Part shown: in pieces, positions 30,656 through 34,241 of the stretch | How positions within the stretch are numbered: position 1 is the stretch's first letter | How the letters are laid out: every line of letters starts with the position of its first letter | Assembly: GCA_018302685.1 (NCBI GenBank) | Contig: JAGVZK010000010.1 | Location: forward strand, 1-34,241 | DNA length: 34,241 nucleotides | DNA from: Candidatus Woesearchaeota archaeon | GTDB taxonomy: Archaea > Nanobdellota > Nanobdellia > SCGC-AAA011-G17 > GW2011-AR20 | Reading direction: 5' to 3' | Made by a program: the position numbers and the translations under genes | Notes under the pieces: model-generated | Database searches by the model: none | Told to the model about the DNA's origin: nothing | The model's input: only the letters and a program-made list of their open reading frames with translations

Positions 30656-31750
30656 TTAATTCTTTAGCATGAACTCCCTCAGCTTGTCTTTTGCCTCTTC
30701 TCTTTTATCCTGGTGCTCTTCCAGAAATTTATTCAGTTTAACAATCAATATCTCTTTGATTTCTGACGTCAGCAATTTTCCTGATTTGTAATCATCATAA
30801 ATCTTCTTCAGCTTATTGTCATTGGGCTCAAAGAACATCCTCAGGTACTGGTAGCTTACATCTATGTCTGGATTTCCCCCTTTCTCCTTGTGCTCCTTTA
30901 TTGTAGATCCCCCGCCTGAAAATGCGTATTTTTTTATCTTATCTTCAACTTCTCTTTTTGAGTCGCTCAGGAATATGCTTCCTTCCTTTGACGATGACAT
31001 TTTAGGATTTCCATGAAGGGAGGGGATGAACTTGGCATGAAGTGCTGCAGGCTTCTCAAAGTTGAAATCCTTGTGATCTGCTATGTCCCTGGTCAGCCTT
31101 ATGAATGGATCCTGATCTATCCCTATTGGAACCACACTCAAGTGCCTTCCTTCATTGAACTGTGGGAAAAGAATATGAGCGGCCTGCATCGCCGGATAAA
31201 AGCTCCATCCTATGTTGCTTTCATTCTTCAGCCCAAAAGCGGCCTTGGCTGTGGAGTAAGTTATCCTCTTTGCAATCATCCCAGCATACTTGTACATTTT
31301 TGTGTAGACAAAGTCCTCAAATATGAAAGTCCTCTTTGGCTTGAACCCCAATGCGATGAGATCAAGTATGTTGTCCTTTGAATATTCCAAAGCATCATCA
31401 AAAGTCAGGTTCTCTTTCACGTAAAACTTTTCATCATCGGAGATAGGAATATAAACGTTGCAGTTGAAACTGTCTTGGAGGGACTTAGCGACAAGAAAAG
31501 GCACTAGGTGACCAAGATGCATCCTTTCAGAGGGTCCTCTTCCAGTTATGACAGAAACCTTCATTTTTTTGTCATGATTGTCGAGCCATTTGTCAAAATC
31601 CCTGTGCGAAAAATAAATCCCCCTTCTTAACAGGGGATGAGTGCCGTCAAGCCTTTTTTTAATTCTGTCATTTATCAGAGAAACCCCAAAATCCTTGACG
31701 AGCTTGCTGTAGTCAACCTCACCTTCAACTTCCCAAGGAGTAACTTTCAT
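30656..31750 (-). CDS. trpS: tryptophanyl-tRNA synthetase
   Basis: VITGRGPSERMHLGHLVPF (HIGH-like), DQDPFIRLTRDIA, KMSSSKEGSIFL (KMSKS). Confidence 0.96.
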   Translation of the reverse strand: MKVTPWEVEGEVDYSKLVKDFGVSLINDRIKKRLDGTHPLLRRGIYFSHRDFDKWLDNHDKKMKVSVITGRGPSERMHLGHLVPFLVAKSLQDSFNCNVYIPISDDEKFYVKENLTFDDALEYSKDNILDLIALGFKPKRTFIFEDFVYTKMYKYAGMIAKRITYSTAKAAFGLKNESNIGWSFYPAMQAAHILFPQFNEGRHLSVVPIGIDQDPFIRLTRDIADHKDFNFEKPAALHAKFIPSLHGNPKMSSSKEGSIFLSDSKREVEDKIKKYAFSGGGSTIKEHKEKGGNPDIDVSYQYLRMFFEPNDNKLKKIYDDYKSGKLLTSEIKEILIVKLNKFLEEHQDKREEAKDKLREFMLKN

Positions 31751-31987: not shown

Positions 31988-32051
31988 GCGGACGCCGTCC
32001 CTTGTTAAGTTCGTTTCCAGCTTTTACGAAGTTCTGGAAACTTGCGTCCGC
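31988..32051. repeat. nested inverted repeats / potential structured element
   Basis: gcggacgc (31988-31995)/gcgtccgc (32044-32051) enclosing gtttccag (32013-32020)/ctggaaac (32034-32041). Confidence 0.6.
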
Positions 32052-32055
32052 AAAG

Positions 32056-32071
32056 TACTTTTTAGTGGCTA
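32056..32071 (+). repeat. left arm of 16-bp inverted repeat
   Basis: tactttttagtggcta, exact reverse complement of 33664-33679. Confidence 0.9.
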
Positions 32072-32148
32072 GTGTTCAATAGAAAGAGCGAAGAGACACA
32101 TCAAGAACAAATATTAAGGGGACATTTCGTAGTGATTGTAGATGTGTA

Positions 32149-32865
32149 TTATTTTTTACTTACACTCCAAAGAATATTAAAATATATTTTGAACGTGTCT
32201 GCAAACTCTTTTCCCCTAATAACTATTGAAACAACTTCAGTTTCATCAAGTTTTCCAATAATTAGATTGTTTTCATAAATTACAAATCCTACTGAAGAAG
32301 AAAATCTTTCAGGCAAAAATTTATATTCTATCTTTTTAAAGAATTTTAATCTTTCAGATATATTTTTAGTATCTGGTTGTAGTAGTTTTATCTTTAATTG
32401 TTCAAATTTATCTCGTATGTACTTTGAAAACTTAAAACTTTCAACAAGATGTAAACCTCCGCCAACCCAATAGACTTCTTTTCCATTTTCAATTGCATCT
32501 TCTAAGATTGTCTTTATTCCTTGTTTTCCCGTTAATATTTCTATTTTTGTGTTGTTGAATTTTGATTTTTGTAAATTTTGTAAAATAGGCAGAATTGTCT
32601 CTAATGTGAATACTTTTTCATCTATTAATTGTTTTAGTGTTTTAACATCATTCGCATTGAAAAATTTTGTCCCATTAACAATATTATATGTTAATAGACC
32701 TTTAGTGATTAATAATTCTAAGTTATCATAAATAGTTCTTCTGTTGATTCCCGTATTTTTAGAGAGTGTGACTGTTGTTTGTTGCGGAATTTTTAATAAA
32801 GATAAATATATTTTTGATTCTATGGTATTTAATCCTAATTTTTTTAATTCTTCATAGAGTTCCAT
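32149..32865 (-). CDS. TrmB family transcriptional regulator
   Basis: MELYEELKKLGLNTIESKIYLSLLKIPQQTTVTLSKNTGINRRTIYDNLELLITKGLL winged HTH; C-terminal TrmB-like domain; start trimmed from ORF 32149..32964. Confidence 0.88.
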   Translation of the reverse strand: MELYEELKKLGLNTIESKIYLSLLKIPQQTTVTLSKNTGINRRTIYDNLELLITKGLLTYNIVNGTKFFNANDVKTLKQLIDEKVFTLETILPILQNLQKSKFNNTKIEILTGKQGIKTILEDAIENGKEVYWVGGGLHLVESFKFSKYIRDKFEQLKIKLLQPDTKNISERLKFFKKIEYKFLPERFSSSVGFVIYENNLIIGKLDETEVVSIVIRGKEFADTFKIYFNILWSVSKK

Positions 32866-32952
32866 ATCATCAAGGATTCGTTCAAATATATAAAGCTTAC
32901 GGGGGATTTCCCACACATTGATTATTATACTTAATGATGATACCCTTCGATA

Positions 32953-33621
32953 ATGATAAAACACATACTGTTTATGCCTGATGGAAACAGACGATTTGCT
33001 AAAGAAAAAAACATTTCTCTTGAAGAATCATATCTTGTAGGTGCTAAATCTCTTAGATTATTTAGTGATTTTTTTCTTTTAGAAAATAATTGGAATATAT
33101 TAACGATGCATTGGATGTCTAGATACACGCATGGTAGAAATGATGGGAGTCTTAATCCTATCTATGATGCACTATATAATGAATTTACAAAATTACATGA
33201 TGAGAAATATTTTTCTAAAAAAGATATTAAATTCAAGTGGATTGATCATTCTAATAAACTGCCTAAAAATTTGGTAGAACTGTGCCAAATATTAGAGAAA
33301 GAATCCAGTTATGGGGACAAAATATGCTATAATTTATTGGGTTATGATTTGGAAACAGATGAACGAATAGCATATGAACAAACAAATAATTATGAAGATT
33401 TTACAAAAAATAGATTAATTCCTGATATAGATTTGATTATTCGAACTACTGAGATGAGATTATCAAAAGGTCCAGTTTATGCTATGTCTCAAGCACAGAT
33501 GCTCTTAGTTCATAAACTTAATCCAGAATTAACAAGAGACGATTTGGAAAGATCATTACATGAATATAATGCTCTTGTAGAATACAGAAAGATAACGAAT
33601 CCCATTCATTTATCTACTTAA
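32953..33621 (+). CDS. divergent cis-prenyltransferase (UppS-like) homologue
   Basis: ILFMPDGNRRFAKEK (MDGNGRWAK-like) and IRTTEMRLSKG...(IRTSGExRLSN-like); 222 aa. Confidence 0.8.
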   Translation: MIKHILFMPDGNRRFAKEKNISLEESYLVGAKSLRLFSDFFLLENNWNILTMHWMSRYTHGRNDGSLNPIYDALYNEFTKLHDEKYFSKKDIKFKWIDHSNKLPKNLVELCQILEKESSYGDKICYNLLGYDLETDERIAYEQTNNYEDFTKNRLIPDIDLIIRTTEMRLSKGPVYAMSQAQMLLVHKLNPELTRDDLERSLHEYNALVEYRKITNPIHLST

Positions 33622-33663
33622 ACTTTTCTTTTGTAGTCTAAATGTCCCATTCTCCGTCATTCG

Positions 33664-33679
33664 TAGCCACTAAAAAGTA
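33664..33679 (-). repeat. right arm of 16-bp inverted repeat
   Basis: tagccactaaaaagta, exact reverse complement of 32056-32071. Confidence 0.9.
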
Positions 33680-33849
33680 TTGAAATTAACATTGCTTGAC
33701 CTGAAGCGAAGCGGAAGGCACGAGTGGAGCAAGAAGCGACCTCGTGAGTTGAGATTTCGTTCTCAGCCGATTTCGTAGCGTAGTTGCTGAAAGTGTATTA
33801 ATTTTAGAGTAGCGAAAGATTTATAAACGAAATGTTTTTCTTCTAAATT

Positions 33850-34086
33850 ATGGAAGAACTTTATAGAAAAATTAAGAGCGAATTCTATAAGATAATGAAT
33901 ATTGCTTCAATAGCAGGATTTTATATAGGCGGTGCGATGCAATTAAAAGGAATGAACGCCAATAATGATAAGCTGATTGAAGTTGGATTATATACTACTC
34001 TCCTCTCGGCAGGTTATTATTTAGGCAGAAAATTTGCGGAAAAACAATTTAAAAAAGCTTCTAATCTTGAAAATAAACTAAAATAA
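33850..34086 (+). CDS. small membrane-associated hypothetical protein
   Basis: 78 aa, hydrophobic segments IASIAGFYIGGAMQL and YTTLLSAGYYLG; TATA (33820-33827) 30 nt upstream of ATG. Confidence 0.6.
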   Translation: MEELYRKIKSEFYKIMNIASIAGFYIGGAMQLKGMNANNDKLIEVGLYTTLLSAGYYLGRKFAEKQFKKASNLENKLK

Positions 34087-34113
34087 ATCTTTCGCTAAAT
34101 TTCTTTCAGCAAT

Positions 34114-34182
34114 TTCGTTAAAGCTTTGTTAGACAAAGTTGCATAGCAATTTTGTAAATTTTCTTTGTGTGGCTTTAACGAA
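34114..34182. repeat. 11-bp-stem inverted repeat with internal hairpin
   Basis: ttcgttaaagc 34114-34124 / gctttaacgaa 34172-34182; internal ctttgt-tag-acaaag. Confidence 0.65.
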
Positions 34183-34241
34183 GCGAGAAATCATAAGGCT
34201 GAGAATTGCGAGTGAAACGAGCAACCTCGTTGGGTGGGTGG

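Follow-up and report, generated by a model that had tools for sequence, protein, structure and literature searches.

The divergent gene pair near the right end of the window (the whole stretch of 34,241 nucleotides analysed here) encodes a TrmB-family regulator and a cis-prenyltransferase-like (UppS-like) enzyme. The pair is well supported as a horizontally exchanged, accessory regulator-cargo cassette, in which regulator and operator probably stay constant while the cargo is swapped. In distant archaea, relatives of this regulator keep the same predicted operator but drive different genes with it, several of them for lipid enzymes, which makes the pair look like an exchangeable accessory module. 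In the mechanism we propose, the TrmB-family repressor would be autoregulated: by binding an operator palindrome in the promoter that the divergent genes share, it would control its own gene together with one adjoining cargo operon, here the divergent cis-prenyltransferase. Regulator plus operator would be the constant part, with cargo, frequently a prenyl-lipid or membrane gene, being exchanged among lineages. The module may travel with larger accessory islands. Where inverted repeats form its borders, they would show how far the exchanged block extends; recombination probably joined this block to extragenic repeats that match, with no transposase of its own involved. We infer repression by the regulator, its ligand, the activity and product of the enzyme, and the role of the repeats. 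It should be noted that all compared genomes are draft assemblies and that names given by inspection (TrpRS, ZIP-like, TyrRS-like, secretion ATPase) are readings of the sequence, save where Pfam is cited.

Table 1. Positions of the cassette, its borders and the neighbouring repeats in the window
Feature	Position	Strand	Remarks
R1 repeat, core GCCTTCGGCATCGTTGCACTAAA	31912..31968	+	intergenic, outside left arm (about 90 bp)
Left arm of 16-bp perfect inverted repeat, TACTTTTTAGTGGCTA	32056..32071	+	
R3 repeat (TGTCCCCTTAATATTTGTTCTTGATG...)	32073..32125	-	downstream of TrmB
TrmB-family regulator, 238 aa from conserved ATG	32149..32865	-	PF01978; subfamily alignment
Divergent promoter/operator, predicted	32899..32935	+	right half-site CCACAC (32911-32916) and downstream CATTGATTATTATACTTAA conserved
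Divergent cis-prenyltransferase, UppS-like, 222 aa	32953..33621	+	PF01255; AF2 model; PDB matches
Right arm of 16-bp perfect inverted repeat	33664..33679	-	exact reverse complement of TACTTTTTAGTGGCTA
R4	33776..33828	+	promoter-side flank of small gene; short collinear inverted matches to R2
Small membrane protein, 78 aa, beside cassette	33850..34086	+	place held by lipoprotein gene in G075
R2 conserved AT-rich hairpin element	34080..34192	+	3' of small membrane-protein gene

Regulator, operator and changing cargo

Both genes bracketed by the inverted repeat are what the original prediction had named, a TrmB regulator (PF01978, 42.8 bits against a cut-off of 25.6, E 5e-11) and a UppS-like protein (PF01255, Prenyltransf, 63.4 bits, E 3e-17). 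Alignment with relatives indicates that the regulator probably starts at the ATG at 32865, not at the upstream GTG at 32964. Only its N-terminal winged helix matches known families in Pfam, NCBIfam and the PDB; these searches did not recover the sugar-binding C-terminal domain of classic TrmB and TrmBL1, and the NCBIfam score is 33 bits where 650 are needed. Since nothing is recognisable in the C-terminal two thirds of the protein, the sugar ligand proposed earlier is unsupported. The subfamily to which the regulator belongs is sporadic, with six members in five families. Its closest TrmB relative within the order is found in another family (genome G075), a profile search added G365, G367 and G346 (members score 273-444 bits vs 154 for the next TrmB), and G460, more distantly related, came to light as the sixth member in a subsequent search (209 bits). 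No relatives of either protein were found in viral and phage collections, and plasmid collections yielded distant matches only (22-28% identity).

The palindrome GTGTGG-N6-CCACAC is predicted to be the dedicated operator of this subfamily. It occurs without mismatch once per genome in G075, G365, G367, G346 and G460, always at the divergent promoter of the regulator, and is absent from G011 and G020, genomes without a subfamily TrmB. The predicted site is thus exact in five relatives, and the window keeps the right half-site only, along with the downstream CATTGATT-TATA region; its left half-site (ACGGGG, 32899-32904) is degenerate, with 3 of the 6 bases kept. Of 103 genomes of the order, only two contain the string CCCACACATTGATT, in each case at the homologous promoter (window and G075). 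Viral contigs carry the operator 14-mer in many unrelated contexts, and these occurrences were set aside.

The cargo at these loci is a cis-prenyltransferase in the window, a methyltransferase plus a polyprenyl synthetase in G075, a methyltransferase alone in G365, a VTT/DedA protein (PF09335) in G460, and small membrane proteins without a family in G367 and G346. For the DedA family in bacteria, translocation of undecaprenyl phosphate has been proposed (PMC9876793). The window is the only case of the subfamily regulator with a cis-prenyltransferase. Co-occurrence of TrmB and UppS-like genes, which had been suggested as a check, was seen a second time at locus L068, where the two genes are divergent across a perfect palindrome, AGTTGTTATT-aaa-AATAACAACT; however, the TrmB of this pair is a different one, 27% identical to the window regulator and outside the subfamily, and was rejected as the same regulator. 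Taken with the subfamily loci, this independent pair means that a link between TrmB and a polyprenyl-lipid gene is seen more than once, although the lipid theme may be partly accidental because two of the six cargos are uncharacterised small proteins.

The cargo enzyme of the window is predicted with high scores to have the cis-prenyltransferase fold. An AF2 model using 32 sequences (a model from 6 sequences was poor) reached pLDDT 93 and pTM 0.90 and matched solved cis-prenyltransferases in the PDB (E 1e-14, TM about 0.8), with Z,Z-farnesyl, undecaprenyl and neryl diphosphate synthases as the best matches. In cis-prenyltransferases the Asp of DGNxR is catalytic and RxxExR is the phosphate site; the window protein keeps D10, G11, N12 and R14 of DGNRR and R164, E167 and R169 of R-x2-E-x-R. 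The conserved YxE Glu near the C terminus is not found and aligns to Q182, which is invariant in the UppS-like clade, and the score against TIGR00055, the undecaprenyl diphosphate synthase equivalog, is 53.7 bits, below the cut-off of 109.6. This clade is rare, being present in 3 other genomes among 371 (phylum sample), and a pattern-based scan of GTDB contigs gave 5 loci. A canonical UppS is also encoded in three other genomes with the UppS-like protein, which makes the latter an extra paralogue there; none was found in the assembled part of the window's genome (78% complete). The window enzyme would probably be a second, conditional maker of polyprenyl diphosphate, either for a lipid carrier or for a short Z-isoprenoid. 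A truncated UppS-like gene also lies at a contig end in G186 (L069, 504-1391), followed by a tyrosine-recombinase-like gene.

Composition, islands and extragenic repeats

The suspicion that the cassette is more AT-rich than its surroundings was correct, with a GC content of 28% vs 39% in the rest of the window and a GC3 of 0.17-0.19 in the cassette genes, 0.24 in the next small gene and about 0.44-0.51 in seven other window genes. The nearest relative at this locus, G011, is collinear with the window through TrpRS (84% identical), and 74 bp upstream of TrpRS it has a secretion-type ATPase operon where the window has the cassette; the window's genome carries counterparts of the initial genes of this operon on its contig C3. 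Comparison of the trpS locus, as originally recommended, shows the cassette to be absent from this locus in the relative, but because the difference lies exactly upstream of TrpRS, where a rearrangement is present, the cassette sits at a synteny break and not opposite a clean empty site. At three of the six regulator loci an aminoacyl-tRNA synthetase gene lies no more than two genes away (for Trp, Thr and Leu by inspection; window 30656-31750, L241 4942-6696, L243 1332-4091), which is perhaps an insertion preference. A defence reading was rejected, as PADLOC gave no meaningful match among the window proteins.

Movement is best seen in G075 and G365. These genomes belong to different families and share a 1502-bp regulator-methyltransferase block at 84% DNA identity, with abrupt edges, an end at the TrmB stop codon and unrelated flanks. 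The G075 cassette lies within an island of ~11.5 kb that is missing from its congeners G020, G037 and G064 and is placed between the RNase P RNA gene (RF00373) and a membrane-protein gene. In G037 and G064 this membrane-protein gene and the next, tRNA-synthetase-like gene are within 1 kb of RNase P, and in G020 the tRNA-synthetase-like gene itself is within that distance. No integrase was seen in the island by inspection.

Extragenic repeats (R1-R3) accompany the cassette. R1 recurs in the window's genome, on contigs C3 and C28, and also within the G075 island; copies lie at L073 1600-1656, L075 1858-1903 and L280 934-961, and the repeat is common to different families of these archaea. Two lipoprotein genes of the G075 island are followed by elements homologous to R2 (77-79%), and 7 compensatory base pairs occur across 4 sequences (the window, L087 9870-9990, L280 1391-1509 and L253 1491-1612). 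In the 480 kb searched, R2 was found in the window, the G075 island and G086 only, and no Rfam family reached its cut-off for R2 in the window or L087. R3 is again downstream of TrmB in G075, and in G365 it lies beside an HNH-like/recombinase-like gene pair (names by inspection). The flanks of the small membrane-protein gene (33776-33828 and 34083-34120) show inverted matches between R4 and R2 of 15 bp (exact) and 18 bp (83%), each individually near chance level. The two lipoprotein genes of the G075 island have the same flank layout in different letters, so that the flanking arms seem to change together.

Read most economically, these data suggest a frame in which regulator, operator and extragenic repeats stay constant and recombination exchanges the coding sequences. 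A more specific form would be a transposase-free exchange element of DPANN archaea, its frame consisting of R3, the TrmB gene, the operator, a small envelope gene and R2 with inverted-repeat borders, and its lipid-carrier enzymes swapped between lineages by recombination; we regard this specific form as unlikely.

Borders of the cassette and competing explanations

The 16-bp perfect inverted repeat that gave rise to the original prediction is present and is unique in both window and genome. Its arms are the sole 16-mer inverted pair in a scan of the window, and the 473-kb assembly (78% complete) contains no additional arm copy when 2 mismatches are allowed. Dinucleotide shuffles of both flanking intergenic stretches gave an inverted 16-mer in 0 of 20,000 cases and a 14-mer in 7 of 20,000. 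The inner blocks that had been thought to extend the terminal similarity (32119-32127 and 33640-33648) are indeed exact inverted 9-mers, but they sit 47 and 15 bp inside the arms; they are not collinear with the arms and thus do not extend the termini, and a match of such length is unremarkable. Sixteen viral contigs carry one exact arm 16-mer each, which were taken as chance and set aside because none of the 16 has a pair. A large hairpin (31988-32051, GCGGACG...GCGTCCGC) lies immediately outside the left arm.

Related genomes show how far such borders recur. Perfect inverted repeats of at least 16 bp spaced 0.3-3 kb number five in 434 kb of related archaeal DNA, two of which are the window cassette and the related G075 cassette; the remaining three are 16-17 bp long and have one or both arms inside open reading frames. 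The divergent G075 cassette lies between the arms of a perfect inverted repeat of 64 bp, one arm starting at each of its two stop codons. This repeat is unrelated in sequence to the 16-bp arms of the window, and no inverted repeat is present at the G365 and G367 cassettes; from cassette to cassette the repeat is not conserved.

One alternative is that the 16-bp repeats are the terminal inverted repeats of a non-autonomous DNA transposon with two cargo genes, moved in trans by a transposase. This would account for a perfect, non-chance repeat at both borders and for the TA that the arms carry at both outer ends, as in TA target duplication of the Tc1/mariner or IS630 type, and it draws on the perfect repeat around the homologous G075 cassette and on an IS630-type transposase remnant (DDE_3) on contig C28. 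We nevertheless consider it improbable, as the ends have no second copy in the genome (assembly 78% complete), no clear target duplication is seen beyond TA, the G075 repeats are unrelated in sequence and start at stop codons, and G365 carries the block without repeats. The ends around the IS630 remnant (AGTAGTTAA) also differ from those of the cassette, and on this ground it was rejected as the partner transposase. The split IS630-type gene (L075 777-1679, in the window's genome) lies near another R1 copy, and no transposase is present near the window cassette. The original idea of a self-contained mobile module accordingly survives as an AT-rich, horizontally acquired unit that has no transposase, is missing at this locus in the nearest relative, and whose regulator recurs elsewhere, with its operator but beside different cargo, in one further case inside perfect inverted repeats; what lacks support is the view of the repeats as transposition ends.

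It is more doubtful still that the repeats are functional 3' elements common to both transcripts, such as termination or processing signals or extra regulator sites, and not recombination borders. In the window and in G075 the arms do lie 3' of both genes and in the same sense per transcript, and TACTTTTTAGTG is similar to TACT-N3-AGTA, the classic TrmB site (PMC4158304). Against this, the two cassettes have arms of unrelated sequence and G365 has none, the subfamily operator is a different palindrome, and a T-run terminator is not present in the transcript sense. An ordinary local gene pair with a coincidental inverted repeat is very unlikely: three other perfect repeats of 16-17 bp do occur at a spacing of 0.3-3 kb in the related DNA, but one or both of their arms fall within open reading frames, no shuffling of the flanks yielded 16 bp, and composition and the synteny break show a foreign block. 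Least likely of all is an assembly or binning artefact that placed 2.4 kb of AT-rich DNA from another organism at the contig end; the sharp GC drop, the end of the contig at 34241 (562 bp past the right arm) and the failure to find the block in the nearest relative would fit, but R1, which lies about 90 bp beyond the left arm, recurs on C3 and C28 within this bin, and foreign GC is expected in an acquired block.

Significance and relation to known systems

DPANN archaea, with their tiny genomes, rely on partners, and to our knowledge the acquisition and control of their envelope functions are poorly known. A regulator that keeps its operator while changing its cargo points to a few testable genes connected with polyprenyl-lipid supply (cis-prenyltransferase, trans-prenyl synthase and VTT/DedA protein) and supplies a precise operator for binding tests. 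The recurrence of inverted-repeat borders without a transposase poses a concrete question of how genes move in these archaea.

The regulator resembles the TrmB family (PF01978; PMC4158304) in its N-terminal winged helix, in the palindrome next to BRE/TATA of the target promoter and in its place beside the target. It differs in being ~240 aa long with a C-terminal part that has no family match, in an operator unlike the classic sites (TACTN3AGTA, TATCACN5GTGATA and TACTN7-8GAGTA; PMC4158304), in the tie of its subfamily to one divergent promoter and in a cargo that is mostly not sugar genes. The enzyme shares the fold and the DGNRR and R-x2-E-x-R motifs of cis-prenyltransferases (UppS, PF01255; (2Z,6Z)-farnesyl and neryl diphosphate synthases). 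Unlike canonical members, it belongs to a separate clade (RTTEMRLSKGPVYAMSQAQM), has an invariant Q in place of the YxE glutamate, and occurs beside a canonical UppS in three other genomes tested.

Archaeal integron gene cassettes, which have been reported from Nanoarchaeota among other phyla (PMC9668308), are likewise small units of genes in which a noncoding element follows the ORF, whereas the two genes of the window share one divergent promoter. An integron reading was tentatively set aside, since the regions read contain no same-direction array and no integron integrase, and the end boxes of R2 are not in attC order (by inspection). Like horizontally transferred islands and regulator-cargo cassettes, the system has foreign composition, a sporadic distribution, empty sites, and toxin-antitoxin-like and envelope genes nearby. 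It is set apart from such islands by an integrase not being seen in the island (inspection), by perfect inverted-repeat borders in two cases and by a constant regulator and operator with changing cargo.
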